DNA of 51,836 nucleotides from Bacteroidetes bacterium ADurb.Bin145 (GTDB taxonomy: Bacteria > Bacteroidota > Bacteroidia > Bacteroidales > VadinHA17), in contig MWDJ01000023.1 of assembly GCA_002070505.1 (NCBI GenBank), forward strand, positions 1-51,836. The letters are read 5' to 3'. A model generated the notes under the pieces. The model was given only the letters and a program-made list of their open reading frames with translations, was not told the origin of the DNA and made no database searches. The position numbers and the translations under genes are program-made. Positions 12,131 to 51,282 of this stretch are shown piece by piece; position 1 is the first letter of the stretch; each line of letters opens with the position of its first letter.

Positions 12131-14122
12131 ATGCTTATAACTGGAGTTTTTATCTTATTAACACTCTTTTCTTTTATAGTTTTCATAGTCCGGGGATCCT
12201 TAAAGTATTTCCTCTCACTTTTTATTCTGTCAGCCGGGATTATCATCACTTCTGTATGGAGTTTGTCTGTTTTATCTGACAATAAGACCGTTGAACTGAC
12301 TCTTCAGCTTCCTGTTTTACAGCATTCACTTTCTCTTGTAATAGACAGGATATCTGCTTTTTTCATCCTTGTAGTCAACATCACTGTCCCGGTGGGATTT
12401 CTGTATGCCAGGGGCTATCTAAAACAATATTCAAAGACTAAAACCCCTTTGCATTTTTCAATTCATTATTTCTCATATATCTGGTTGTATCTCTCAATGA
12501 TCCTCGTTGTGATGATACGTAACGGTGTGGCATTCCTGATAGCATGGGAAATGATGGCTGTCTCATCTTTTCTTCTGGTGATCTTTGATGCTGAGGACAG
12601 GCTGATAATGAAAACGGGTATCAGTTACCTTATACAGATGCATGTCGGAATGTTCTTTATACTGGTTGCATTCCTGATCGTAGAAAAAGAATCCGGGCTG
12701 ATGAGCTTTGATGCACTTCCTGAATATTTTTCAAAACATTCAAACATTATCCTGTTTTTATTATTCTTCATTGGTTTCGGTATAAAGGCAGGCTTTGTCC
12801 CGATGCATACCTGGCTTCCCCGGGCTCATCCTGCAGCTCCTTCACACGTGTCGGGGATCATGTCAGGAGTAATGATAAAAATGGGTATCTATGGGATCGT
12901 AAGAATACTGATTTCCCTGCAAAATGATTTGCTGCCTATCGGTCTTATTATACTGGGTGTATCAGTTATTTCTGCCCTGTATGGAGTGATGATGGCAATT
13001 GTTCAGCACGACCTGAAGCAGCTGCTTGCTTATCACAGCATTGAGAATATCGGAATTATCGGCATCGGTTTAGGACTGGGTATTATTGGAATTGCTGAAG
13101 GTAATCACGTATTAAGTATTCTTGGTTTCAGCGGAGGGTTACTTCATGTTCTGAATCATTCGCTTTTCAAATCATTATTGTTCTTCAATGCCGGATCGGT
13201 TTACCTGGCTACTCACACCCGTAACATAGAGGAACTTGGCGGGCTAATGAAAAAAATGCCCTGGACGGCCGCGCTTTTCCTTACAGGTTCACTTGCTATT
13301 TGCGGACTTCCTCCGTTCAACGGTTTTATTTCGGAATACCTTATTGCAATAGGGATGTTTAAGAGCCTGTCAGCTGCTGATCTTAACCAGGCTATCGTTT
13401 TATTATCAGCCATAACCGGCCTTATTCTTACAGGAGGACTCGCAGTTTTTTGTTTTACAAAGGCATTCGGGATAGTTTTCCTTGGGCAGCCCCGTTCTGA
13501 GAAAGCCTCTTTTGCCCATGAAGCAGACACGATAATGATCCTGCCCGAGCTTATTACGATCATCTTTATTCTGCTTATCGGGCTGGCATCCCCGTTATTC
13601 GTCAGGCCGGTAATTGACATGGCCGCCGCTGCATTTAACCTTACTGATTCGGTTCCGGCATCAGCCACCTCACTTATCAGCCTTTCTCATATAAGTATAC
13701 TGAGCGGGATCTTTGTCGTTATTGTTACACTATTACTTGTATACAGGTATTTTCATCTTCAAAGGAGGATTGTAACAACAGGATCTGTGTGGGGTTGCGG
13801 ATACACAGCAAGCTCACCGAAGCAGCAATATACGGCAACATCTTATGCCTACAACTACAATCATCTGGCTAAACCTCTGCTGGGGACCCAAAAGATAATG
13901 GAGGAGATGGAAGAGGGTGAGATATTCCCTGGGGAGAGAGACTTTAAATCATTCAGCGAGGACGTTTTCAGAACCAGAGTGATAGATATTCCTGTTGACC
14001 GGATATCCGGGTTACTTAAGAAAATCGCGGTTATGCAGACTGGAGAGATCAGGCATTATATATTATACGCTTTTGTATTCATATTGTTAGTCTTATTATT
14101 GACTTTTTTCAATCTGATCTGA
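12131..14122 (+). CDS. hyfB: HyfB-like antiporter-type subunit of an Ehr/hydrogenase-4-like complex
   Basis: A 663-residue, strongly hydrophobic protein of the proton-conducting NuoL/M/N family. The antiporter-like core contains the conserved TM5 Glu (Glu140 in AWEMMAVSS) and the TM7 Lys (Lys219 in GIKAGFVPMHTWLPRAHPAAPS), with Lys250 further on. These residues pass charge along the membrane in complex I and related hydrogenases. The C-terminal extension with the VWGCGY..PKQQYTATSYAY block is typical of HyfB/HycC. It starts a tightly packed operon; the next gene begins one base after its stop. The symbol marks the closest family. The Ehr counterpart would be EhrA. Confidence 0.9.
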   Translation: MLITGVFILLTLFSFIVFIVRGSLKYFLSLFILSAGIIITSVWSLSVLSDNKTVELTLQLPVLQHSLSLVIDRISAFFILVVNITVPVGFLYARGYLKQYSKTKTPLHFSIHYFSYIWLYLSMILVVMIRNGVAFLIAWEMMAVSSFLLVIFDAEDRLIMKTGISYLIQMHVGMFFILVAFLIVEKESGLMSFDALPEYFSKHSNIILFLLFFIGFGIKAGFVPMHTWLPRAHPAAPSHVSGIMSGVMIKMGIYGIVRILISLQNDLLPIGLIILGVSVISALYGVMMAIVQHDLKQLLAYHSIENIGIIGIGLGLGIIGIAEGNHVLSILGFSGGLLHVLNHSLFKSLLFFNAGSVYLATHTRNIEELGGLMKKMPWTAALFLTGSLAICGLPPFNGFISEYLIAIGMFKSLSAADLNQAIVLLSAITGLILTGGLAVFCFTKAFGIVFLGQPRSEKASFAHEADTIMILPELITIIFILLIGLASPLFVRPVIDMAAAAFNLTDSVPASATSLISLSHISILSGIFVVIVTLLLVYRYFHLQRRIVTTGSVWGCGYTASSPKQQYTATSYAYNYNHLAKPLLGTQKIMEEMEEGEIFPGERDFKSFSEDVFRTRVIDIPVDRISGLLKKIAVMQTGEIRHYILYAFVFILLVLLLTFFNLI

Positions 14123-14123
14123 G

Positions 14124-15035
14124 ATGGCAGTTATCATTCTGATAATAATCACGGCGTTGTTTTTCCCGGGTATAATACTCAGGATCAAGAGTATAGCATC
14201 GGGACGCAAAGGGCCGGGAGTACTGCAGCCAATGAAGGAAATAGCCATTCTTTTCAGGAAAGGGAGTGTTTTCGGAGATACTTCGGGCATCATCTTCAGG
14301 ATTTCTCCGGCTATTTCGTTGTCAGCAGTGGTTTGTGCAATGATGGTTCTGCCATTTGGCAATCTGAAAGCTGTGATCTCATTCGAAGGAGATTTCATAT
14401 TCTTTTCGTACATCCTTGCCCTCGGTAAGTTCTTCTCAATAATCGGGGCACTTGATACGGGAAGCAGCTTTGAAGGAATGGGAGCGAACCGGGAAACTTT
14501 TTTTTCAATGCTGATTGAACCGGCATTCTTTATTCTGCTGGCTACTTTCGCTATGTTTACAGGCCACACTTCATTCTCAGATATTTTTGCCGGCTTTCAT
14601 ATTTCTTCAGATCATTTTATTTTGATATATAGCATTTTAGCTGTTTATATCATTATCCAGATAGCAGTTGTGGAAAACAGCAGGGTCCCTGTCGATGACC
14701 CGAAAACACATCTTGAGCTTACTATGATCCACGAAGTGATGATACTCGATAACAGCGGATTTGATAAAGCCCTGATACATATCGGATCATATCTCAAATT
14801 TGCTGTATTCGGAACACTGCTTTACAATGTTGTCGTCCCGGCCGGAATTAATACAATTCTTCAGATAGCATTGTTCTTTTCAATACAGTTTGTGTTTGCG
14901 TTGACAATTGGACTTGTGGAATCATTCAGGGCAAGGAATAAAATGAACAAGAATCCTAAATTCATACTTACAATTTCAGCTGTGGCATGGATCGCCTTTG
15001 TTCTTATACTTATAATGACAAATAAATTAACATAA
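14124..15035 (+). CDS. hyfC: HyfC/NuoH-like membrane subunit
   Basis: A 303-residue membrane protein of the NuoH/HyfC/EchB family, the subunit that joins the membrane arm to the peripheral arm. Family marks are GSVFGDTSGIIFRISP near residue 47, GSSFEGMGANRE near 113, and the acidic loop ENSRVPVDDPKTHLELTMIHE (184-204). That loop lies near the quinone/redox interface in complex I. About eight helices. One base separates it from the upstream gene and nine from the next. All conserved charged loops appear intact, in contrast to the catalytic subunits of this operon. Confidence 0.9.
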   Translation: MAVIILIIITALFFPGIILRIKSIASGRKGPGVLQPMKEIAILFRKGSVFGDTSGIIFRISPAISLSAVVCAMMVLPFGNLKAVISFEGDFIFFSYILALGKFFSIIGALDTGSSFEGMGANRETFFSMLIEPAFFILLATFAMFTGHTSFSDIFAGFHISSDHFILIYSILAVYIIIQIAVVENSRVPVDDPKTHLELTMIHEVMILDNSGFDKALIHIGSYLKFAVFGTLLYNVVVPAGINTILQIALFFSIQFVFALTIGLVESFRARNKMNKNPKFILTISAVAWIAFVLILIMTNKLT

Positions 15036-15044
15036 CCGGGATAG

Positions 15045-15659
15045 ATGGTCGATTACCTGATAATACTGTTTGCAGTCACGCTTATTTATTTTGCTTCGGC
15101 AGAGAGGCTTGTCAATTATGTAAGGCTGATCGGGATACAGGGATTATTATTATTTGGAATAGCCATATTTGAGCTTAAGGAGATCAACAGTGCGAATATG
15201 ATCTTCATAGCCGCAGAAACCCTGCTGATTAAAACTATTATTGTTCCTTATCTTCTGGGAAGGATAATAAAACGCTCCGGAGTTGCAAAGGTGCACAGGC
15301 AGGCAATGCCCGGATTTTATCTCCTGATACTGTCGATATTTGCCCTTTTGTTCAGTGTAATAATAGCTAACCTGGTCCTCAATCAGTATATAAATACAGT
15401 GTTCATGGCTATTGCACTGTTTACATTGTTCACAGGATTGCTCCTTATTGTCACGCACAAATTAATAATATCTCACCTGATAGGATTTCTTGTAATTGAA
15501 AATGCTGTCTTTCTTTTCTCGATGGCGGTAGGGAACAGGATGCCTATGCTGATCAACATAGGAATACTTCTCGACATCTTCGTCGGAGTTCTGATCCTTG
15601 GATTTTTTGGTTTACGGCTGAAACCACGCACAAACGAACTAACATTATTAAAAGATTGA
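15045..15659 (+). CDS. hyfE: HyfE-like membrane subunit
   Basis: A 204-residue membrane protein with about six helices. The N-terminal half resembles HyfE of hydrogenase 4. The C-terminal part (ENAVFLFSMAVGNRMPMLINIGILLDIFVGVLILGF) is NuoK/MrpC-like, with the buried Glu of the LVIEN segment as in other NuoK-type proteins. It lies between HyfC- and HyfF-like genes, as in hyf and ehr operons, with three bases to the next start. It probably forms part of the ion-translocating membrane arm. Confidence 0.85.
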   Translation: MVDYLIILFAVTLIYFASAERLVNYVRLIGIQGLLLFGIAIFELKEINSANMIFIAAETLLIKTIIVPYLLGRIIKRSGVAKVHRQAMPGFYLLILSIFALLFSVIIANLVLNQYINTVFMAIALFTLFTGLLLIVTHKLIISHLIGFLVIENAVFLFSMAVGNRMPMLINIGILLDIFVGVLILGFFGLRLKPRTNELTLLKD

Positions 15660-15662
15660 CAG

Positions 15663-17087
15663 ATGATATTATTATTCTTCTCAGCGGCAGTCGTATTCAG
15701 TTCGTTAATTATTCTCCTCAGGAATAAAACCTTTACAAAGATCGTTTCAGTTCTTTATGCCGGTCTCCTTATTGTATTTACTTTTTATTCATGGAATAAT
15801 TTAAACCGGACAGAACTTGGTTATTTTAATTTTAACAGCGCCGGGGTATTACTGCTTTCAGTCCTTGCCCTGCTTGGCATTCCGACTGTCTATCATGGAT
15901 TCATATATACTTCCGGTGATGACCCGAAGAAGCACAGTATTTATCATGCAGCCCTGATCATGCTCATGACTTTCATGGCTGGTGCATACCTGGCTAATGG
16001 CATGACCGTGCTGTGGATATTTGTTGAAGCAACGACACTGGCTGTTGCTGCTCTTATCTATCACGACAGGAGTGAAGCCGCTCTTGAAGCAACATGGAAA
16101 TACGTATTTATCTGCTCCACCGGTATAGCTCTTGCCTATCTGGGGATCCTGTTTTTGGGATTCATTTACGGCCGGGGTGATGCTGCAAATCTTTCATTCG
16201 ACACACTGGCAGGACTGATAAAACAGGCCAATCCTTTATATTTGAAGATAGCATTCCTCTTTGTTCTTGTAGGCTTCAGTACCAAGATGGGACTTTTCCC
16301 GATGCATACAGTGACAATAGACGCTCATTCTGTTGCGCCCCCGCCGGTAAGTGCCCTTATCTCAACCACATTGATGAATGTGGGCTTCCTTTCAATATTC
16401 AGAGTGTATACACTGTTCGCATCGTCCGAAATCCTGGGTTTCATGAATCATGTACTAATTCTGTCAGGAATATTGTCGCTGCTGATAGCATCAGGATATA
16501 TGCTGAAGGCAAAGCATCTCAAGAGGATGCTTGCATATTCAAGTCTTGAGAACATGGGACTTGTTGCCCTGGCAATAGGGATCGGAGGATCGGGTTATTA
16601 TGCTGCTTTTTTGCTCATTATTCTTCATTCTCTGGCAAAATCAAGCCTGTTTTACCAGATGGGCCAGCTTTCAAGGGTGCTTCATACCTTCAGGCTTGAT
16701 GATTGCGGAAGGTATATGGCTCTGTACCCTGCAGGAGCACTGGTACTTATTGCAGGAATGATAAGCATAATGGCTATTCCTCCATCGGGCCTGTTTATCA
16801 GTGAACTGATGATCTTCAGGGCCCTTGTGAATAACAATCAGTGGATAGTACTCGTCATCGTGATCCTTCTGCTCTGTTTCATCCTGTATGCCATGAGCAC
16901 CAGAATAATGCATATTGTTTATTCAAATCCCCGGAAAGAGCAGGTTCAGGAAACCATTTCCGACGTAAAACCGGTGGAAACGATAAGCCAGTTCCTCTTT
17001 CTTGGCCTGGTAGTGATCCTGTGCTTTTATCAGCCTGAATTCATCTCGGGACTTATAAACCAGAGTATTGATATTTTTCTCCCATAA
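15663..17087 (+). CDS. hyfF: HyfF-like antiporter-type subunit
   Basis: A 474-residue second antiporter-like subunit (NuoN/HyfF family). Glu122 in IFVEATTLAVAAL and Lys208 in GFSTKMGLFPMHT are the expected TM5 Glu and TM7 Lys, and the proline-rich HSVAPPPVSAL loop follows. So this operon carries two antiporter-like subunits (HyfB- and HyfF-like). The third one found in hydrogenase 4 (HyfD) is absent. It ends one base before the ATG of the large-subunit gene at 17089. Confidence 0.9.
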   Translation: MILLFFSAAVVFSSLIILLRNKTFTKIVSVLYAGLLIVFTFYSWNNLNRTELGYFNFNSAGVLLLSVLALLGIPTVYHGFIYTSGDDPKKHSIYHAALIMLMTFMAGAYLANGMTVLWIFVEATTLAVAALIYHDRSEAALEATWKYVFICSTGIALAYLGILFLGFIYGRGDAANLSFDTLAGLIKQANPLYLKIAFLFVLVGFSTKMGLFPMHTVTIDAHSVAPPPVSALISTTLMNVGFLSIFRVYTLFASSEILGFMNHVLILSGILSLLIASGYMLKAKHLKRMLAYSSLENMGLVALAIGIGGSGYYAAFLLIILHSLAKSSLFYQMGQLSRVLHTFRLDDCGRYMALYPAGALVLIAGMISIMAIPPSGLFISELMIFRALVNNNQWIVLVIVILLLCFILYAMSTRIMHIVYSNPRKEQVQETISDVKPVETISQFLFLGLVVILCFYQPEFISGLINQSIDIFLP

Positions 17088-17088
17088 T

Positions 17089-18612
17089 ATGAAGAATAAT
17101 CAGGAATATTTTATAATTAAGAATAACTCATCATCAGCAGATCTTGAGGATATTCCTGTTATGGATTATGTGTCATTCCGTGAAAAGATAATTTCTGCTC
17201 TGAATGAAGAAAATAAACACTGTATATCATACTATAGTGTTCCATCTGAAGATTATTTAAGACTGATTTGTTGTATAGCTGATGATTCAGATAAAAGCAT
17301 TGAAATATTCTCATGTAAATCCGGCAAAGACATAAAGCTGATTGAATCCGCAGCTTCACTAAGTCCTCAGGTTCATATTTTTGAACGCGAGATCCATGAG
17401 AATACCGGAATTGTTTTCACTGGTCACCCGTGGCTGAAACCAGTCAGGTTTTCCCATAGCAGGGCAGATAAATCAAAAACCGTGGATGGTTATCCGTTTT
17501 ATTCAATTCATAGTGAGGAGCTGCATGAAGTAGGAGTTGGTCCGGTACATGCCGGAGTGATAGAACCGGGCCATTTCAGGTTCATCTGTAACGGCGAAAA
17601 AGTACATCATCTTGAAATACAGCTGGGTTACCAGCACCGGGGAGTGGAAGAATTATTCCTCTCAAAGCAGGATGCCTTGCAATGGTGTATCTTGTCAGAA
17701 TCTATTGCAGGAGATACCTCGGTCGGTCATTCTCTTGCACATTCACAGCTGATTGAATCACTTAGTGGTATGGAGGTCAGTGAAGGGCTGCAGATCGAAA
17801 GATGTATTGCACTGGAACTTGAGAGAGTCGCCGTTCATATTGGAGACACTGCAGCATTATGCGGAGATGTAGCCTATCAGTTGGGCCAGGTGGTCTGTGA
17901 AGCTCTCAGGACAGTTGTGATCAATACTACACAGCTATGGTGCGGGAACCGGTTCGGGAAAGGACTGATTCGTCCGGGAGGAAGTAATTACCCGTTGAAT
18001 GAAGAAATTGCGCAAGCAATATATGATACTGCCGGTATAGTTGAAGAGAGATTTGGTGAGATAGCTGATTGCATCTATTCAACTCCCAGCGTTCTTGCAA
18101 GATTTGATGAGATAGGAATTGTGACAAAAAAACAGGCTCATGCGATCGGAACAGTTGGTCCGTCAGCCAGGACATGCGGAATAGAAAGAGATATCAGACG
18201 GTCTCACCCTTTTCAGTACTTCAGGAATTACATTGTTGATCCGGTGATCCTTGAAAGCGGTGATATACTGGCCCGCGGGATGCTCCGAAGCCTTGAAGTC
18301 CAGGGATCAATAAAAATCATAAGGGATCTGCTGAAGATCTGGTCGGAGAGTAAACGAAATGAAGAAAAACCGGTTTACAATTACAGATTGAAACCAGATA
18401 GTTTTTCACTTGCACTTGTTGAAGGATGGAGAGGAGAGATATGTCACTCGGCTATGACGGATAAGAATGGCAAAATAAGTCATTATAAAGTTAAGGACCC
18501 TTCATTTCATAACTGGATGGCACTGGCACTGGCAGTCAGGAACCAGGAAATCTCCGATTTTCCGGTCTGTAATAAAAGTTTTAACCTGAGTTACTGCGGG
18601 CATGATCTTTAA
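17089..18612 (+). CDS. hyfG: HyfG-like large subunit lacking all [NiFe] ligands (EhrL-type)
   Basis: A 507-residue fusion of a NuoC-like 30 kDa domain (about 1-120, with EREIHENTGIVFTGHPWLKPVRF) and a NuoD/HyfG large-subunit domain. In [NiFe] hydrogenases the first ligand motif reads CGIC; here the aligned stretch is SESIAGDTSVGHS (203-215), so both Cys are lost (Ala207, Thr210) while the nearby His213 remains. The C-terminal DPCxxC is replaced by NLSYCG (499-504). The protein ends three residues later at HDL, so there is no tail for a maturation protease. It therefore should not hold a Ni-Fe centre. I use the ATG at 17089 because the in-frame ATG at 17068 would overlap the previous gene and adds unconserved residues. 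Confidence 0.9.
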   Translation: MKNNQEYFIIKNNSSSADLEDIPVMDYVSFREKIISALNEENKHCISYYSVPSEDYLRLICCIADDSDKSIEIFSCKSGKDIKLIESAASLSPQVHIFEREIHENTGIVFTGHPWLKPVRFSHSRADKSKTVDGYPFYSIHSEELHEVGVGPVHAGVIEPGHFRFICNGEKVHHLEIQLGYQHRGVEELFLSKQDALQWCILSESIAGDTSVGHSLAHSQLIESLSGMEVSEGLQIERCIALELERVAVHIGDTAALCGDVAYQLGQVVCEALRTVVINTTQLWCGNRFGKGLIRPGGSNYPLNEEIAQAIYDTAGIVEERFGEIADCIYSTPSVLARFDEIGIVTKKQAHAIGTVGPSARTCGIERDIRRSHPFQYFRNYIVDPVILESGDILARGMLRSLEVQGSIKIIRDLLKIWSESKRNEEKPVYNYRLKPDSFSLALVEGWRGEICHSAMTDKNGKISHYKVKDPSFHNWMALALAVRNQEISDFPVCNKSFNLSYCGHDL

Positions 18613-18636
18613 TCTATTTATCAACGGTATGTTAAG

Positions 18637-19395
18637 ATGTTAAAAGAACTCAAGATACTAAAGCATCACGGTAAGCAGTATATTAGTGATCTCAGGAGGC
18701 AGAAGATCTCTCCTCTTTTCAGAGGTCGTCCTGTAATATCAGAAAGCATTTCAGAAGAGGAGATAAGGTCCGCTGCTGCTGTTTGTCCGGTCAGGGCCGT
18801 CGACAAGAGTTCGGGATCGATAGACCTTGGCAAATGTGTCTTCTGTAAGGAGTGTGCATTCCTGTTACCCGGAAAGATTGAATTCACAAATGATTATCAT
18901 ATCGCTTCAAATGATCGTAATAGCCTGATAATCAAACCAGGGGATCACAATTTAATAAAGCTTGATGAAAAGAAGGTAAGGCAGGAGGTAAGAGATCTGT
19001 TTAAAGGGGCATTGAAGCTTCGTCAGGTCTCAGCGGGGGGAGACAATTCATGCGAGATGGAGCTGGCTGCATCAGGTAATGTGAATTTTGACATGGGCCG
19101 TTACGGAATTGAATTCGTCGCCAGTCCCCGTCATGCTGACGGAGTAGTGATTACCGGACCAATCTCAGAGAATATGTCCAGAGCCCTGGAAATTACTTAC
19201 GATGCAATACCTGAACCCAGGATCATAATCCTTGCAGGCACTGATGCAATAAGCGGTGGCATTTTCGCAGGAAGTACGGCGCTTGACAGGAGTTTCCTGG
19301 AAAAACATCATATTGATCTTTATGTGCCAGGGAATCCTGCTCATCCGCTTACATTTATAAATGGAATAATGGATCTGCTTGGGATAAAAAAATAA
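18637..19395 (+). CDS. HyfI-like small subunit with reduced iron-sulfur sites (EhrS-type)
   Basis: A 252-residue protein. Residues about 45-80 form half a ferredoxin: Cys50 (CP) plus CxxCxxC at 67/70/73 can hold one [4Fe-4S] cluster. The rest is a NuoB/HyfI domain with SPRHADGVVITGP and SGGIF well kept. The four ligands of the proximal cluster are mostly gone. The CNGC pair is now DNSC (Asp136, Cys139), the third Cys is Asp203 in AGTDAISGG, and PGCPP is PGNPA (Asn233). So a conventional proximal cluster cannot form. It is the last gene of the operon, 24 bases after the large subunit. Ehr complexes of Geobacter-type bacteria show the same gene order; I infer a related non-hydrogenase role. Confidence 0.88.
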   Translation: MLKELKILKHHGKQYISDLRRQKISPLFRGRPVISESISEEEIRSAAAVCPVRAVDKSSGSIDLGKCVFCKECAFLLPGKIEFTNDYHIASNDRNSLIIKPGDHNLIKLDEKKVRQEVRDLFKGALKLRQVSAGGDNSCEMELAASGNVNFDMGRYGIEFVASPRHADGVVITGPISENMSRALEITYDAIPEPRIIILAGTDAISGGIFAGSTALDRSFLEKHHIDLYVPGNPAHPLTFINGIMDLLGIKK

Positions 19396-30477: not shown

Positions 30478-31923
30478 ATGAAAAGTATTTTAAAGCAGAT
30501 CACTGAGAACCAGGATCATACCGGGGACAGTGAGCGAAGCCGCCGCAGTTTCATCAGGAAAGCTGCAATGGGTGGTATTGCTATTGGCAGTTTTATGAAT
30601 ATGCCTGTTGAGGAAACCCTGGAACAGATGACATCAAAGGTTCAGAGAGCTTCCCGTCCCTCTGAGCTGAAGATCACTGATATGAGAGTAGCTGTGATAA
30701 ACGATAGTGGCAGGAAGCCTATAATACGGCTTGATACAAACCAGGGTATCTATGGTCTCGGTGAAGTAAGAGACGGGGCTGATGAAAGATATGCCCTGAT
30801 GCTGAAAAGCCGGTTACTCGGACTCAACCCCTGCAACATTGAAATGCTGTTCAGGATAATAAAACAGTTTGGATATCATGGCCGTCAGGGAGGCGGTGTC
30901 AGTGCTGTCGAAATGGCATTATGGGACCTTTGCGGGAAGGCTTATGGCGTTCCTGTATGGCAGCTGCTGGGCGGAAGATTCCGTGACAAGATACGCCTGT
31001 ATGCTGATACACCCGGAGTAAACGATCCCCAGGGTTTTGCCGAAAAACTTAAAAAGAGAGTCGATGAACAGGGTTTTACATGGCTGAAAATGGATCTGGG
31101 AATACACCTTGTAAACAAGACCGAGGGGAACATAGTTAACAATAAATTCTGGGGCGGTCTCGCTCAGTATGACCTGCGCGATTATATGGGATACGGTAAC
31201 ACCCTTCATCCTTTCACCCAGGTTCAGATCACGGACAAAGGACTTGAAGATCTCGAAAAATATGTTGATACGATACGAAATGCTGTAGGGTATGAAATAC
31301 CACTTTCATCAGACCATTTCGGACATTTTGACATAAATAATTCAATCCGATTCGGGGAAGCAATGGAAAGATTCAGGCTGGCCTGGGTTGAAGACATGGT
31401 CCCATGGTTCGATACCGAAAGATGGAAAACCGTTTCAGATGCCCTTAAGACACCAACCTGTACGGGGGAAGATATTTTTATGCTGAAAGATGGATTTAAA
31501 CCGCTTCTTGATGCGAAAGCAGTGGACATAATACAACCCGATCTTGCGACTGCAGGAGGTATAATGGAAACAAAGAAGATCGGTGACTATGCTGAAGAAT
31601 GTGGTGTGGCTATGGCGCTGCATATGGCAGGAACACCTGTCTGTTTTATGGCAAATGTGCACTGTGCTGCTGCAACACAAAATTTCCTTGCGCTGGAACA
31701 TCATTCAGTTGATGTCCCCTGGTGGGCTAATCTTGTAATAATGACTGGTGATCAGCCAATGATTTCAAAAGGATTTGCCAACGTGCCTCTTGAAGCACCC
31801 GGTCTGGGTATTGAACTGAATGAAGAAGAGATTAAAAAACATCTTCTGCCATCAGCTAAAGGTTATTTTGAACCCACACCGGAATGGGATCAGAAGCGTT
31901 CTCACGACAGATTATGGAGTTAA
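30478..31923 (+). CDS. Tat-exported mandelate-racemase/enolase-superfamily dehydratase
   Basis: A 481-residue protein. A twin-arginine signal (SRRSFIRKA, Arg22-Arg23, followed by a short hydrophobic stretch) precedes an enolase-superfamily fold. The N-terminal capping domain is at about 64-175. The barrel carries metal ligands Asp279 (SSDHFG), Glu305 (WVEDMV) and Glu331 (CTGEDIF). Likely general bases are Lys204 (WLKMDLG) and His382 (MALHMAG). Family members dehydrate or racemise sugar acids. It is a close paralogue of 49750-51282 and of the partial gene at the window end. A BASS-type transporter gene follows after 27 bases, suggesting a sugar-acid uptake/conversion pair. Confidence 0.88.
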   Translation: MKSILKQITENQDHTGDSERSRRSFIRKAAMGGIAIGSFMNMPVEETLEQMTSKVQRASRPSELKITDMRVAVINDSGRKPIIRLDTNQGIYGLGEVRDGADERYALMLKSRLLGLNPCNIEMLFRIIKQFGYHGRQGGGVSAVEMALWDLCGKAYGVPVWQLLGGRFRDKIRLYADTPGVNDPQGFAEKLKKRVDEQGFTWLKMDLGIHLVNKTEGNIVNNKFWGGLAQYDLRDYMGYGNTLHPFTQVQITDKGLEDLEKYVDTIRNAVGYEIPLSSDHFGHFDINNSIRFGEAMERFRLAWVEDMVPWFDTERWKTVSDALKTPTCTGEDIFMLKDGFKPLLDAKAVDIIQPDLATAGGIMETKKIGDYAEECGVAMALHMAGTPVCFMANVHCAAATQNFLALEHHSVDVPWWANLVIMTGDQPMISKGFANVPLEAPGLGIELNEEEIKKHLLPSAKGYFEPTPEWDQKRSHDRLWS

Positions 31924-42386: not shown

Positions 42387-42485
42387 TACAGCCTTCGAAA
42401 AATAATTGCTAAATTGAGATCATTAACTACATGGTAGTTTCAATACAAAATGAAGTTAAATCTCAGATCAATAACAACAACTCTT

Positions 42486-44666
42486 ATGAAAAAGTCCTTT
42501 ATAATAATCATTGCCTGCATCACGGGATTTCTTATTATCAGCTGTAATCAGGATAAAGGCACCAGGACTGTTTTTGTGGGATCCGACAGATCTTCTCCTC
42601 AGGCTCTTTATGCGACTGGAAAACTGAATAAAGCTTTGCTTAAATCAGGTTATACAGTAATTGAAGCAAAAAATGCAGCAGGCTGCATAATAGATCTTCG
42701 CATAGCGGAGAATCTTCCGGCCGAGGGTTTCTCTCTGGTCTCCAATGGGAAAAATATTACAATAACCGGAGGTGATGCAAGGGGTATGATATATGGTGCA
42801 CTTTCACTTGCTGAGGATCTTCGTAATGGCATCAGGCTTGGAAAAGTATGTGACAGGGCTGAAAAGCCTTACTACCCTCTGAGGGCAATAAAGCATAACA
42901 CTCCATGGGATTCATACCGGCCCAGCTCAGCTATCGATCAGCACTATGAGACAGTACGTGACCTTGATTACTGGAGAGCATTCCTTGACATGATGGCAGA
43001 GAACCGCTTCAATTCTCTTGGGATATTCAATCTCCATCCCTTTGTTTATATGATCAGACCGAAGAATTTCCCTGAAGCCAGCCCTTTCAATGATCAGGAA
43101 ATGAAGGAGTGGGAGGATTTTCACCATGAACTTATAAAAATGGCAGAAGAGCGTGCCATCGATACATATATTTTCCCTTTCAATATTTTTGTCAGCGAAC
43201 AGTTTTCAAAAGCTCATAATGTAGCCCTGACAAATTTTTATCCTCATTACTACTGCGCAGGCGATACCTCTGAAATAGTCCGGAGATATATGCGCGAATG
43301 TGTGACTCAGGTCCTGCAGGAATATCCCGGCCTTACAGGGATAGGTTTCACGATCGGGGAGGGAATGGCCGGTATGACACCGCAGCAGAGAGAAGAGTGG
43401 ATGTTTGGGACTTATATTGAAGGAATGCGTCTCGCCGGCCGTAAAGTGAAACTTGTACACAGGATCCCTTTTTCAAGCACCACTGAATCATTGGGGGCAA
43501 CGAGTGTGGATCTTGAGAGGCTTACCCGCAAAGCTATCGAGAAAGAAGCCAGCCTTGATTTCATTGAAGGTCCGATCTATGCAGATCTTAAATACAACTG
43601 GTCCCACGCCCATTCTACACCTAAACTTGTAAAAGTGCACGGGGGTAAAATGTACGACACATTCTATAATCCTGAGCCGGAAGGGTATAAAATAACTTAT
43701 ACAGCCCGCAATGAGGATTTCTTTGCTCTCCGGTGGGGAGTTCCTCAATTCATCCGTGACCATATAAAACTGAACAGCCAGACATATAACGGAGGGTATT
43801 TTGTCGGCTCAGAAACTTATATCCCTGCACTCGATTATTTTACTGCATTAGAATCACCGGTCGACTGGAAATATGCATTTGAGCGCCAGTGGCTCTTCTA
43901 TAAACTATGGGGAAGGCTCCTTTATGATCCGGCCACTCCCGATAAAACTTTCGAAGATGAATTCCTGAGACGTTATGGTAAGATAGCACGTTCTCTCCCT
44001 GAGGCTTTTTCACTTGCTTCATCCACGCAGTTGCGGCTGGCCTCTCTGTATGATTGCGGCTGGGACTTTACACTCTATGGAGAAGGCTTCCTGGCATTGC
44101 AGGGAGACAGCACAAAATATATCTCTGTGAACAGACTTATCTCTCAGCCGGCTTTGGATCCTGATTATATTTCTGTTAAGGATTATGTTGAAGGATTATT
44201 AAAAGGTGAGACTTTCGGGGAAAAGAAAGTCACACCGCCGGAACTGTCTGAATTATTGAGGAATGATTGCTCTAAAGCATTGCAGCTTGTTAAGAACATC
44301 AATACAAGCAGGAACGTATCTCTGATGTACGAGGTTGCTGATGTAAAGACCTGGGCATATCTGGGACTTCACCTTGCAGAAAAGCTTGAAGGTGCAGTTG
44401 CCCTTCAGACTTACCGGTTAAAAGGGGGTGAGGACAATCGGGAAAAAGCAATCACTCATCTTAAAAAAGCTTTGGGAAACTGGGATAAGGTAATTGAAAT
44501 AACAAGGCCCATTTATAAAGACATGCCTCTTACTCATTACAACGGCAGCAGTTATGACAGGAATGACAATAATCTTTTCCATTGGGCAAGGATCAGACCG
44601 GAAGTAGCAAGGGATGTCGAAATAGCTGAAAAGGCTTCACCAAAAAACTCAGCTGATGAACATTAA
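42486..44666 (+). CDS. lipoprotein glycoside hydrolase, alpha-glucuronidase (GH67/GH20b-like N-terminal domain)
   Basis: A 726-residue protein from the ATG at 42486 (the frame is open from 42450, adding 12 residues before MKKSF). A signal with lipobox LIISC places it on the cell envelope. Residues about 25-120 resemble the N-terminal GH67/GH20b domain, ending in [24 protein letters not shown]-barrel-like part follows ([39 protein letters not shown], where Glu in the GEG context may be catalytic). The helical C-terminal third is typical of such enzymes. The gene overlaps the permease-kinase gene by 11 bases, so it belongs to that operon and likely releases the imported acid. Confidence 0.75.
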
Positions 44667-46893
44667 AAAAAAAATTGAAAAGGTCCCCGGCGGGATGATG
44701 ATCATCCCCCTGATAATCGGAGCTTTAATAAACACGTTTATCCCCGGGGCTCTTAAGATCGGAGGATTTACAACTGCCATTGCCACCGGTTCATCTGCCC
44801 TTATCGGTGTGTTTCTTGTCTGCATGGGTGCGGGAATAAGTCTGAAGGCTGCTCCACGCGCTTTGAAAAAAGGTGCTGTAATTACTTTTTCAAAGTTCAT
44901 CATCGGAGTAATTATTGGCCTTCTAATTGCAAAACTATGTGGAGACAAAGGTTGGCTGGGCTTATCTTCCCTTGCAGTGATAGCCGCAATGACCAATAGT
45001 AACGGGGGCCTTTATACTGCTCTTGCCGGGGAAATGGGAGATGAAACTGATGTAGGGGCAGTGGCTGTTCTGTCGATAAATGACGGTCCTTTCCTCACAA
45101 TGATAGCTCTTGGAACCACCGGTCTGGCGACAATACCATTGGGAAGTCTTATGGGCGTTCTAATTCCGATAATAATCGGAATGATCTTAGGCAATCTTGA
45201 TCAGGACATGAGAAAATTCCTGTTATCCGGAGGACCTGTCCTTATCCCGTTTTTTGCGTTTGCACTTGGTGCAGGACTGGATCTTAAAATGTTGATAGTT
45301 GCCGGTTTCTCGGGGATTTTGCTCGGCATTCTGACAACCTTTGTCGGAGGTTTTTTCAATATCCTTGCTGACATATCTTCAGGGGGAAGCGGGATAGCCG
45401 GAGCTGCAGCTTCGAGCACAGCCGGAAATGCAGTTGCCACTCCCGCGGCAGTTGCCCTGGCTGACCCTTCAATGACAGCAATCTCCCAGATTGCTACTCC
45501 TCAGGTTGCCGCATCGACAATAACAACAGCAATACTTACTCCAATCCTTACAACATATATCGCCAAACGGAAGAAATCACGGAAAGTGATAGATTATAAA
45601 GGACCCGCACCCGGGATCAATGAAAAGATGATAATTATCGCCGATGATCTGACAGGGGCCGCAGATACTGCCGTCCAATTCAGCAAGAAAGGGATTAAAA
45701 GTCTGGTTATAAATGATATTGAAAATATTGGCAGATCATGGAATGAGTGCGATGTACTGGCAGTAAATACCGCAAGCCGTTCGGACACGCGAGATATAGC
45801 GTACAGGAAAACATTCAATGCAGGAAAGGTATTGTCAGGGAAAGACATAAAATTCATTTACAAGAAAATTGACTCCACACTGAGGGGAAATATCGGAGCC
45901 GAACTCTCCGGGCTGATGGATTCCCTGAAAATCAATTGCAGTATTATCGTTCCTGCCCTGCCTGAACAGGGAAGAACAGTCATCGACGGCAATCTGTATG
46001 TAAAAAATGTTTTATTATCAGACACTGAAGTCAGATCAGATCCAACGAAACCGGTGACTGAGTCTTTTATTCCGGCAATTGTTTCACAACAGACTGCCAG
46101 GAAAAATGCAGTGATAAATTATGCACAGGTTCTGGGGGGCCGGGATAGCCTGATTGATACTATCAGGCAGCATATTAATGATGATGTTCAGATTTTAGTT
46201 ATTGATGCCAGGGGAAAAGATGAACTGAGAATAATAGCTTCTGCATTGGCAGGGATGAAAGAAAAAATCCTTGTGGCAGGCTCTCTTGGTCTTGCAGAAT
46301 TTATTCCGGAACATTTTTTAGCGGAAAAGATCAGAAAAGCAAATGTAATTATTGCAGGAAGTGTCAGTGATGTAACACTCAGGCAGCTTGATTATCTTAA
46401 GGATGATTCAGATACAGTTCAGGTCGACATCAATATACCTGATCTGTTTGCAGGAGGAAAGATAAAGGAAAAGGAAAGGATAGAAGCGATTGTCCGGGAT
46501 TCTTGCAGGAAGGGCAATGATATAATTATAAGGAGTGCCAGGAGACGCGATGATATGGAGAAAAGCTTTGAGGCAGGAATGAATTCCGGACTGAACAGAC
46601 GGGAGGTCAGTGAAATCATTGCTTCTTTTCTGGGAGAAATAGCCGCTGATATAATCAGGGGAGCCAGGATCAACGGGATGCTCCTTACAGGAGGAGATAT
46701 TGCCCTGCAAACAGCAAAATCGCTGAAAGTGCCAGGATTAGTTGTTGAAAATGAAGTACTTCCTGGAATACCAATTGGTTATTTTTCTGATGCAGCCTGC
46801 AAGGATATAAAGATAATCACCAAAGCAGGCGGCTTTGGTACTGAAGATGCAATTTATAAGGTACTGGAATTCCTTAAAACAGGAAAACGATGA
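44656..46893 (+). CDS. fusion of KdgT-type permease and DUF1537 acid-sugar kinase
   Basis: A single 745-residue frame. Residues 1-303 are a full-length 2-keto-3-deoxygluconate-permease-type transporter ([66 protein letters not shown]). After a basic 21-residue linker, residues 325-745 are a complete four-carbon acid-sugar kinase: [24 protein letters not shown] (404-413), the C-terminal GSVSDVT and the ATP-site LLTGGD and KAGGFG (723-728). Both parts match the usual length of stand-alone proteins. The kinase would face the cytoplasm and could phosphorylate the acid as it arrives. It overlaps pdxA by four bases (ATGA), and an internal ATG at 45628 could also start a free kinase. Confidence 0.9.
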
Positions 46894-47924
46894 AAAAGAA
46901 CAGCAGAATTACAATTGGAATAACAATGGGAGATCCTTCGGGTATCGGACCTGAAATAATAATAAAAAGTTTTGAAAGGAAATCAGTAAGAAACGGAAGG
47001 ATCATTATTATAGGCGATTTCAATATTATGCAGATGGCTTATGATCTCATAAAACCGGACGGTTTTTCTTTGAAAAAAATCACTGATGCAGGTCAATGTG
47101 ATTTCAGTCCATCCCGTCTGAATGTTCTGGATCTTCATTTAATTGACCGCAAGAATTTCAGTCCAGGTGTAGTCAATGCTGACTCAGGAGCTGCTGCTTT
47201 TGAATGTGTCAGGAAGGCAACTCAGCTTGCTATGACCGGACAGATGGATGCGATAGTCACGGCCCCTTTGAATAAAGAGGCATTGCACAAGGCAGGGAAG
47301 AATTTTTCAGGGCATACTGAAATACTGGCTTCATTAACAGGGAAAAAAGATTATGCAATGCTGCTGTATGATCGCAAGCTCAGTGTGATACATGTTTCGA
47401 CTCATATTTCGTTAAAGGAAGCAATCACGGGGCTAACAAGCGACAGGATAGAGAAGGTGATCGTCATGGCTGATGAGGTAATGCAAAGGCTTAATGGTTC
47501 GAGGCCGGGGATCGCAGTGTCGGGTATAAATCCCCATGCCGGGGAGAACGGTCTCTTCGGAAGGGAAGAGATAGAAAAGATAATACCTGCCATCAATAAT
47601 ATGAAAAAGCGGGGGATCAATGTTGAGGGTCCGCTTCCTCCGGATACTGTTTTCCTTCAGGCGATGAAAGGCAGGTACGACATAGTGGTGGCAATGTATC
47701 ACGATCAGGGGCATATTCCGATGAAACTGCTGGGTTTTAACAGCGCTGTAAATATCACTGTGGGGCTTCCGGTAATAAGAACCTCAGTCGATCATGGAAC
47801 AGCATTTGAGATTGCCTGGCAGGGGAAGGCCGATGAGAGCAGTATGGTTAATGCAATCAAGCTGGCGATAAGGATGAGAATACCCCCCAACCCCTCAAAA
47901 GGGGGGCTTATTGATTTCTGCTGA
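46890..47924 (+). CDS. pdxA: PdxA-family 4-phospho-acid dehydrogenase (PdxA2-like)
   Basis: A 344-residue NAD-dependent, metal-binding dehydrogenase of the PdxA family. Family marks are [13 protein letters not shown] (N-terminus), the metal-binding His in SGHTEIL and [22 protein letters not shown] with the third His, and [20 protein letters not shown]. Classical PdxA acts in vitamin B6 synthesis. PdxA2 paralogues encoded next to DUF1537 kinases oxidise and decarboxylate 4-phospho-threonate or -erythronate to dihydroxyacetone phosphate. The four-base overlap with the kinase gene favours that catabolic role here. The last 13 residues come from a C-rich/G-rich palindromic repeat that has replaced or extended the normal C-terminus. 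Confidence 0.9.
47883..47906 (+). repeat. palindromic C/G repeat element inside the pdxA 3' end
   Basis: CCCCCC (47883-47888) and GGGGGG (47901-47906) enclose an inner CCCCT/AGGGG stem. The element is translated as PPNPSKGG at the end of PdxA and may also act as a terminator hairpin between the convergent genes. Similar elements are frequent between Bacteroidota genes. Confidence 0.7.
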
Positions 47925-49749: not shown

Positions 49750-51282
49750 TCAGATCCACAATTTGTCATATGTTCTGCCAGTGCTGTCCCATTCGGGAGT
49801 AGCATCAAAATATTTTGAACCTTTTCTCATTGTCTTCTTCAGATTTTCATCATTGAGTTCTAATCCCAGACCCGGAGCATCAAGAGGAACGTTGGCATAT
49901 CCCTTGGTTACGAGGGGTTGTGATCCTGTCATTTTAACAAGGTCGTTCCAGCCAGGGACATCGACATTATGATGTTCAAGAGCGAGGAAATTCTCGGTCG
50001 CAGCAGCACAATGCACCATTGCCATGAAAGCGATAGGAGTGCTGTTTGTATGAAGAGCCATAGGGATACCGGCTTCTTCAGCGTAATCGCCGATCTTTTT
50101 TGTTTCAAGGATCCCTCCCGCACTCACAAGATCAGGCTGGATGATATCCACTGCATGCGCATCGATAAGAGGTTTGAAACCTCCCAGCAATCCTCCGAGC
50201 ATATAAATATCTTCTCCTGTGCAGGTTGGGGTTTCAATTGCATTGGTGATCGTTCTCCACTGGTCGGTATAGAACCAGGCAACACAGTCTTCCATCCAGG
50301 CGAGCCTGTATTTTTCCAGCACTTTACCAAGCCGTATGGCCTGGTTCATATCAATATGTCCGAAATGATCTACAGACAGGGGCACCTCTGTTCCGACCTC
50401 CTTCCTGACATTTTCAACAATATGGGCGATAGCTTCAAGCCCTTTGTCAGTGATCTGAACCTGGGTAAACGGGTGTTCCTTTTTCCAGTAGTCGGTATAT
50501 CCGCCATCAGCAAAACTCCTGCCCATATACCAGCTGTTTATGCTGCTGCCGTTTGAATTCCAGAATTTGGAATTAACAAGAGTATCAGGCTGATCACTTA
50601 TCTGATGAATACCAAGGTCCATTTTGAGCCAGGTGAAACCTTCAACATTCAACCGGTTTTTTAGTTTCTGCAACTCAACAGCCGGGTCCTTGTCTTCGGG
50701 TGTGTCGGCATACAGGCGTATCTTATCGCGGTATCTTCCGCCGAGGAGCTGCCATACAGGTACACCGAGGGCTTTACCGCAGAGATCCCAGCAGGCAGTC
50801 TCCACTGCACTCACACCCACACCCTGGCGGCCATGGAAACCGAATTGCTTGATGACTTTAAAGATCATTTCAACGTTACACGGGTTGAGTCCGACGATCT
50901 TGCTTTTAAGGAATAATGCAAGACGCTGATCGGAGCCATCTCTTACATCACCTAATCCATAAATGCCCTGGTTGGTTTCTATTTTGATAATACGATTGGC
51001 AAATCCGTTCAGATTACCTTTTTCAGCGACACGGAGGTCGGTTATCTTAAGATCTGAAGGGTTTGAAGCACGTGAGACCTTTTGGGTGGTCTGAGCAATT
51101 GTATCCTCAACAGAGAGGTGTATCAAACCGCCGAGAGCAATGCCCCCGAGGGCTGCTTTCTTAAGAAAATTACGGCGGTTGCCGGAAGTTTTTGGATCAG
51201 CTATCTCAGCTTCGATAGCTTTCCTTTCTGCTCTTTCCTGCTGTTTTGTTTTTTCAGCAATTTCCTGTAGAATAGTTTTCAT
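49750..51282 (-). CDS. Tat-exported mandelate-racemase/enolase-superfamily dehydratase, paralogue 2
   Basis: A 510-residue protein with a long N-terminus and a twin-arginine signal (GNRRNFLKKA, Arg36-Arg37). The enolase-superfamily barrel has metal ligands Asp305 (SVDHFG), Glu331 (WMEDCV) and Glu357 (CTGEDIY). Probable bases are Lys220 (WLKMDLG) and His411 (MALHTNS). It aligns along its length with the protein at 30478-31923 and has an extra segment near 240-265 (WNSNGSSINSWYMGRSF). The Tat signal on a sugar-acid dehydratase is unusual, since most act in the cytoplasm. Its closeness to the acid-sugar kinase operon suggests a shared substrate family. Confidence 0.88.
   Translation of the reverse strand: MKTILQEIAEKTKQQERAERKAIEAEIADPKTSGNRRNFLKKAALGGIALGGLIHLSVEDTIAQTTQKVSRASNPSDLKITDLRVAEKGNLNGFANRIIKIETNQGIYGLGDVRDGSDQRLALFLKSKIVGLNPCNVEMIFKVIKQFGFHGRQGVGVSAVETACWDLCGKALGVPVWQLLGGRYRDKIRLYADTPEDKDPAVELQKLKNRLNVEGFTWLKMDLGIHQISDQPDTLVNSKFWNSNGSSINSWYMGRSFADGGYTDYWKKEHPFTQVQITDKGLEAIAHIVENVRKEVGTEVPLSVDHFGHIDMNQAIRLGKVLEKYRLAWMEDCVAWFYTDQWRTITNAIETPTCTGEDIYMLGGLLGGFKPLIDAHAVDIIQPDLVSAGGILETKKIGDYAEEAGIPMALHTNSTPIAFMAMVHCAAATENFLALEHHNVDVPGWNDLVKMTGSQPLVTKGYANVPLDAPGLGLELNDENLKKTMRKGSKYFDATPEWDSTGRTYDKLWI

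Follow-up and report, generated by a model that had tools for sequence, protein, structure and literature searches.

The contig MWDJ01000023.1 from Bacteroidetes bacterium ADurb.Bin145 (51,836 nucleotides, the whole stretch of DNA that was analysed and that is called the window below) encodes a protein of 745 residues in which a KdgT-type permease and a DUF1537 acid-sugar kinase are joined in a single reading frame. From sequence comparisons, we regard it as fairly likely that this protein is an importer of D-threonate, or of a near isomer, with a trapping kinase tethered at the cytoplasmic face, and that it feeds the PdxA2-type dehydrogenase encoded by the next gene. The parts and the pathway are known; the join of importer and kinase is a rare variant.

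The fusion gene and its predicted product

The open reading frame (ORF) of the fusion runs from an ATG at position 44656 to a TGA at 46891-46893 and has no internal stops. Three Pfam domains were found in its product, all of them above their cut-offs: KdgT (PF03812) covers residues 3-305 and model positions 1-305 of 305 (394.4 bits, cut-off 25), SBD_N covers residues 325-548 and model positions 1-228 of 230 (195.9 bits), and NBD_C covers residues 564-733 and model positions 1-168 of 168 (107 bits). With E values up to 0.001 these were the only Pfam domains obtained, and EII or HPr domains of the phosphotransferase system (PTS) were not among them. The linker (residues 304-322) has Lys or Arg at 7 of its 19 positions. 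The first-pass annotation, which had described a complete KdgT permease and a complete DUF1537 kinase in one frame with a short basic linker, is thus borne out by the Pfam spans and the linker composition, as is the overlap that it gave with the following pdxA-like ORF, which amounts to 4 bases (ATGA). KdgT, DUF1537 kinase and PdxA, the gene set of the D-threonate pathway, are all present within 44656-47924. The upstream ORF (42450-44666) overlaps the start of the fusion by 11 bases. A whole-genome search (E 0.001) revealed no second match to the fusion protein, and the second PdxA of this genome sits on a separate contig. The features discussed here are:

44656..46893, + strand: KdgT::DUF1537 fusion gene, 745 amino acids, a single frame with three (nearly) full-length Pfam domains
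44656..45564, + strand: KdgT permease half, residues 1-303, with basic ends that are probably both cytoplasmic (Pfam KdgT, Foldseek, charge counts)
45565..45621, + strand: tether, residues 304-322, basic and predicted to be flexible (comparison of five fusions, predicted model confidence)
45622..46890, + strand: DUF1537 acid-sugar kinase half, residues 323-745 (SBD_N and NBD_C, D-threonate kinase model, PDB relatives)
46890..47924, + strand: pdxA2-like gene, probable 4-phospho-D-threonate dehydrogenase (best model PRK03371)
42450..44666, + strand: upstream gene for a distant glycoside hydrolase (partial match to an alpha-galacturonidase model and to PDB 6hze/6hzf)

Both halves carry the conserved residues of their families. 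In the kinase, 33 of the 33 positions conserved in at least 95% of 29 rows, the window included, hold the consensus residue in the window, as do all 44 nearly invariant KdgT positions of an alignment that likewise includes the window. D406 is one of the invariant kinase residues. The AlphaFold2 model of the protein has a mean predicted local distance difference test score (pLDDT) of 91.9 and a predicted template modelling score (pTM) of 0.64, with residues 311-321 below a pLDDT of 50. In this model both halves appear well formed, whereas their relative placement, judged without the pairwise error, is probably not fixed, because the tether has low pLDDT and the pTM is only 0.64. The closest structure to the kinase half is PDB 4xgj by fold (Foldseek) and 4xfm/4xgj by sequence (E 1.9e-50); these are structures of a DUF1537 protein of Pectobacterium atrosepticum, a chain of 464 residues that, unlike the fusion, has no membrane half. 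For the permease half the best Foldseek E value was obtained with KefC (7.7e-5, template modelling (TM) score by target 0.32-0.37 over the KefC chains), but this half is better covered by homologues of the ASBT-type bile-acid symporters (E from 1.2e-4, TM score by target about 0.6).

Charge counts over 29 rows showed that basic residues are concentrated at the N-terminus and at residues 65-72, 185-192 and 303-312. Under the positive-inside rule, by which basic segments face the cytoplasm, both ends of the permease are probably cytoplasmic, which would place the kinase inside the cell.

The tether is 16-19 residues long in all five fusions known to us from this analysis (the window and the four described below) and has 3-7 basic residues. 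Its identity between fusions is 0-33%, with a pairwise mean of 17%, while the KdgT halves are 76-80% and the kinase halves 47-62% identical. In two of the fusions, L048 and L051, none of the 31 codons leading to the kinase motif is an in-frame ATG, GTG or TTG. Because no start codon stands shortly before the kinase, a separate kinase is unlikely there, and in these two loci the kinase would most likely be made solely within the fusion. Ahead of the motif in L049 and L050, the candidate start codons are GTG or TTG only.

Occurrence of the fusion and its separate counterparts

The search for further fusions drew on 84,980 species, each represented by a single genome. It returned 317 KdgT relatives, 80 of which were kept for frame analysis; weaker fusions may have been missed outside these 80. 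Single-frame fusions with a layout identical to that of the window were found at four of the 80 loci (L048, L049, L050 and L051), in Bacteroidota metagenome assemblies, and their products are 59-62% identical to the window protein. L048 is the same contig as that of G018, a genome of the window's genus. A further locus, L109, ends at a contig edge and was counted neither as fused nor as unfused. The first-pass annotation had proposed looking for such fusions across genomes and for a lasting linkage to PdxA2; four more were found, and pdxA follows the fusion in five of five genomes. According to family-wide searches, the five fused genomes span four families, with 2 of 117 genomes fused in the window's family and 1 of 23, 1 of 28 and 1 of 16 in the other three (centre genomes included). 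The window was the sole fused genome in samples drawn from its order (393), class (395) and phylum (395), and G018 was not among the matches there.

Matches spanning residues 1-741 in Firmicutes and Proteobacteria suggested a widespread fusion, an interpretation that was discarded with the finding of a single frame in just four of the 80 loci. Three long frames were also rejected as fusions: those of L014 and L037 are kinases in their own frames, and that of L131 encodes a sodium/hydrogen exchanger. A search of plasmid records gave 1614 matching records, 18 of them at a query coverage of at least 80%; the fused gene was not seen among the 10 of these 18 that were listed, all of which match in two pieces, and the four that carry feature annotation list the two products separately. 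No KdgT-DUF1537 fusion is described in the literature searched by title and abstract, a search that left subscription journals mostly outside its reach, or in the accessible portions of PMC10079672, PMC6892915, PMC9997740, PMC10580937 and PMC12540250.

Separate genes in the same arrangement are common. In 49 of the 80 loci, an unfused KdgT gene precedes a kinase gene of the same strand at a distance of at most 350 bases; PdxA is present in 45 of these 49, KdgT and kinase are in the same frame in 18, and in nine a single stop alone parts the two open frames. Since the two genes are often neighbours and in some loci share a frame with one stop between them, a small change can join them. Among all 80 loci, the kinase was found in 56 (four of them fused), PdxA in 53 and both in 52. 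Another order, kinase-pdxA-kdgT with all three genes separate, was observed in L081 (5968-9147), L024/L012 (G243) and L115 (5965-9162). In L006 (847-1737, G023:C7), an ORF of 296 amino acids combines an apparent start of an enolase-superfamily protein, as judged by eye, with two KdgT pieces that match query residues 61-128 and 242-310 and lack the part between them; decay of the KdgT or a collapse in the assembly would account for it.

The genus of the window itself contains several arrangements. In G024, kdgT, kinase and pdxA are separate genes, the first two of them 7 bases apart. In G015 and G002 the run consists of a GntP permease, an isomerase of the LarA-like nickel-pincer type (group 22), the kinase and PdxA, with no KdgT half; the same run occurs in G018 and, in another family, in L050 with the kinase fused to a KdgT half. 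One genus therefore offers a natural test set of joined genes (window, G018), separate genes (G024) and a kinase without the KdgT half (G015, G002), in which the kinase of the sister operons, encoded beside a GntP permease, is a natural control. The group 22 isomerase was seen between a GntP permease and a DUF1537 kinase in L042 (14742-15995), L045 (7014-8276), L046 (2726-3985) and L050 (4608-5897); these loci belong to four genomes, whereas the genomes of the window, G024, G1222 and G1224 yielded no such isomerase.

The fusions' KdgT halves occupy one side of a branch in a quick 81-row tree (Shimodaira-Hasegawa-like approximate likelihood ratio test, SH-aLRT, 96). In the kinase tree, the five fusions and G015/G002 form a clade (97/92) with G015/G002 placed inside it. 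A kinase clade of fusions only was not rejected (p value of the approximately unbiased test, p-AU, 0.104), and a 58-row quick kinase tree also needs two changes. The PdxA tree joins the window to G015/G002 (94/91) and does not unite the five fused operons (p-AU 0.0501); both p-AU values come from trees of 21 hand-chosen rows. One clean clade of fused operons, which holds for the KdgT half and not for the kinase or PdxA trees, was rejected. A single fusion with subsequent loss of the KdgT half in G015/G002 would fit these trees, exchange between operons being the alternative.

Substrate, mechanism and competing explanations

The D-threonate catabolic pathway, which Zhang is said to have described in 2016, reportedly consists of KdgT, a DUF1537 kinase (DtnK) and PdxA2. 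It has the same three families as the window, in an order common to many loci, and the same presumed route from D-threonate through 4-phospho-D-threonate to dihydroxyacetone phosphate; importer and kinase are separate there, whereas they are one polypeptide here. The best kinase model for the window is that of D-threonate kinase (NF047819, 325.6 bits), as compared with 174.2 bits for 3-oxo-tetronate kinase and 55.2 bits for 3-oxo-isoapionate kinase, and NF047819 is also the best model for the other four fusions (342-374 bits). For the PdxA neighbour, the best of seven listed PdxA models is PRK03371 (NF002891), D-threonate 4-phosphate dehydrogenase, with 423.8 bits, and its score against the general pdxA model, 377.6 bits, lies above the cut-off of 290.35. 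Over 316 columns, the KdgT half and E. coli KdgT share 39% identity. According to the accessible part of one report, KdgT of Ralstonia eutropha enables growth on D-threonate in E. coli that carries the D-threonate kinase and dehydrogenase (PMC10079672). The D-threonate (or near-isomer) reading is preferred because of the best kinase and PdxA models, the linkage of KdgT, kinase and PdxA, and the Ralstonia importer; substrate, direction and reaction are inferred from the families and from this one published importer. A four-carbon acid, as the first-pass annotation had suggested, fits, with the models favouring D-threonate; the 2-keto-3-deoxy acids that it had also named are disfavoured by the models, and the case for 2-keto-3-deoxygluconate as the substrate is weakened by the scores.

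In the mechanism that we propose, the KdgT-type secondary transporter would import a four-carbon acid sugar, for which D-threonate or a near isomer is the likeliest candidate, and the DUF1537 kinase on its cytoplasmic C-terminus would phosphorylate the incoming acid with ATP. The charged product would be trapped in the cell, where PdxA2 would oxidise and decarboxylate it to dihydroxyacetone phosphate. The join would derive from two adjacent genes of the known D-threonate pathway, and the tether would set a 1:1 ratio and hold the kinase where the acid leaves the importer, so that trapping is aided by proximity. Related solutions are found elsewhere. Substrate taken up by PnuC is likewise retained through its phosphorylation in the cytoplasm by the kinase NadR, but the two are separate proteins and, according to the part of the paper available, there is no experimental evidence of a direct interaction (PMC7221760). 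Arabidopsis LTD also has an OtnK-like (DUF1537) kinase domain fused to other steps of a related pathway; its partners, however, are dehydrogenase and aldolase domains and not a transporter, and it acts for L-threonate, as far as the accessible text tells (PMC12540250). The PTS also ties import to phosphorylation, but the fusion has a DUF1537 kinase domain and no PTS domain was found in it. A transporter fused to the kinase of its own substrate would allow a direct test of whether tethering improves metabolic trapping. By the Rosetta-stone argument, KdgT proteins encoded beside DUF1537 and PdxA2 genes would import the substrate of the kinase and not 2-keto-3-deoxygluconate, for which some of them are named in public records.

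Several observations weigh against the D-threonate importer with a tethered kinase. The kinase score is below the NF047819 cut-off of 450 and that of the PdxA neighbour below the PRK03371 equivalog cut-off of 583; against TIGR00793, the model of the 2-keto-3-deoxygluconate transporter, the window reaches 268.5 bits at a cut-off of 453.8, and L087, an unfused KdgT beside kinase and PdxA, also stays below it (287.8). The window retains a GTG (V311) and an ATG (M325) ahead of the kinase, and a separate kinase, of 46-47 kDa against 78 kDa for the fusion product, is also possible there. The fusion is rare, as the counts in the family, order, class and phylum show, and the kinases and PdxA proteins of the five fused operons form no clades of their own. 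The join is dispensable, as the operons of G015/G002, which have no KdgT half, indicate. The account of the Ralstonia importer, as far as its text was accessible, leaves the gene neighbourhood undescribed. Finally, a relative of the upstream glycosidase lies in another locus, L074, close to a stand-alone KdgT, which could mean that the substrate is an acid derived from a glycan.

The last of these points, together with the unreached D-threonate equivalog cut-offs, belongs to an explanation that we consider possible, if clearly the lesser one, namely that the architecture is the same and the acid is another: a 2-keto-3-deoxy acid, D-erythronate, L-threonate or an acid freed by the upstream glycosidase. 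The upstream gene had been called glucuronidase-like and part of the same operon. The overlap with the fusion start stands, and the gene is probably co-transcribed with the fusion; the label needs correction, since residues 46-327 of its product (738 residues) are distantly related to alpha-galacturonidase (PDB 6hze/6hzf). Its N-terminus resembles, by eye, a lipoprotein signal. A tblastn search of 85 loci found a sole relative, in L074 (26% identity over 742 columns, E 2.8e-56), and none in the available flanks of the other four fusions, which argues against an acid freed by the glycosidase; fusion loci thus do not carry this gene as a rule, though it may belong to the system in the window. 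In L074 (1959-8105), the relative is followed in a row by a dehydratase-like gene (enolase superfamily, by eye), the stand-alone KdgT and a glycerate-kinase-like gene (by eye), and no DUF1537 kinase was found in this locus. The run may be a pathway for a glycan-derived acid, and the link between glycosidase and KdgT may not be due to chance. A second route to another acid is offered by the nickel-pincer isomerase (NF052515, group 22) of G018, L050, G015 and G002, which is suggestive of a C2 epimerase for the pathway; if active at C2, it could admit the epimer D-erythronate. No substrate for group 22 isomerases was found in the literature searched; the accessible part of one paper has LarA homologues epimerise 4-deoxy-threonate/erythronate pairs (PMC11770544). 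What also speaks for D-threonate over these acids is the lead of the D-threonate kinase model over the two 3-oxo acid kinase models.

It is only slightly less plausible, though still doubtful in our view, that the fusion is neutral or nearly so: a stop was lost between neighbours, the halves act as they would alone, and flux is unaffected. The genes are often adjacent, and in frame in some loci with a single stop between them, so that a small change could suffice; the sequence of the tether is not conserved, and the relatives in the same genus manage without the join. However, frame and tether length are retained over five genomes in which the kinase halves have diverged to 47-62% identity, and start codons for a separate kinase are gone in two of the five fusions.

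A tighter coupling than mere tethering appears improbable. The kinase could take the acid straight from the importer or gate it, in a PTS-like single step that uses ATP and a KdgT carrier; in its full form this would be group translocation without the PTS in one polypeptide, with the kinase docked at the inner mouth of KdgT, D-threonate handed over, and the state of the kinase controlling the carrier. The covalent 1:1 pairing of an importer with the first enzyme and the probable cytoplasmic location of the kinase, as deduced from charge distribution, are compatible with it. The tether, however, is predicted to be disordered and the low pTM, at so high a mean pLDDT, suggests no fixed pose; moreover, DUF1537 proteins of solved structure have 413-464 residues and lack a membrane half. 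The import of a sugar acid combined with its phosphorylation, as the first-pass annotation put it, is the natural reading of the fusion, while the PTS-like effect that it envisaged is unsupported, given the predicted flexibility of the tether and the lack of a PTS domain. A join created by a missed stop or frameshift, conceivable since the window is an entire contig of a 218-contig metagenome assembly, is extremely improbable, and assembly error was excluded, as four further assemblies, whose accession prefixes differ, have this join as well.

Other genes of the window

Two dehydratase-like proteins of the enolase superfamily that look alike by eye are encoded at 30478-31923 and 49750-51282, both with a Pfam MR_MLE domain; the second also matches a twin-arginine signal model with 20.4 bits (cut-off 16.7). 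The region 12131-19395 contains, as judged by eye, a gene cluster resembling those of hydrogenase-4/formate hydrogenlyase or of another complex-I-like enzyme.

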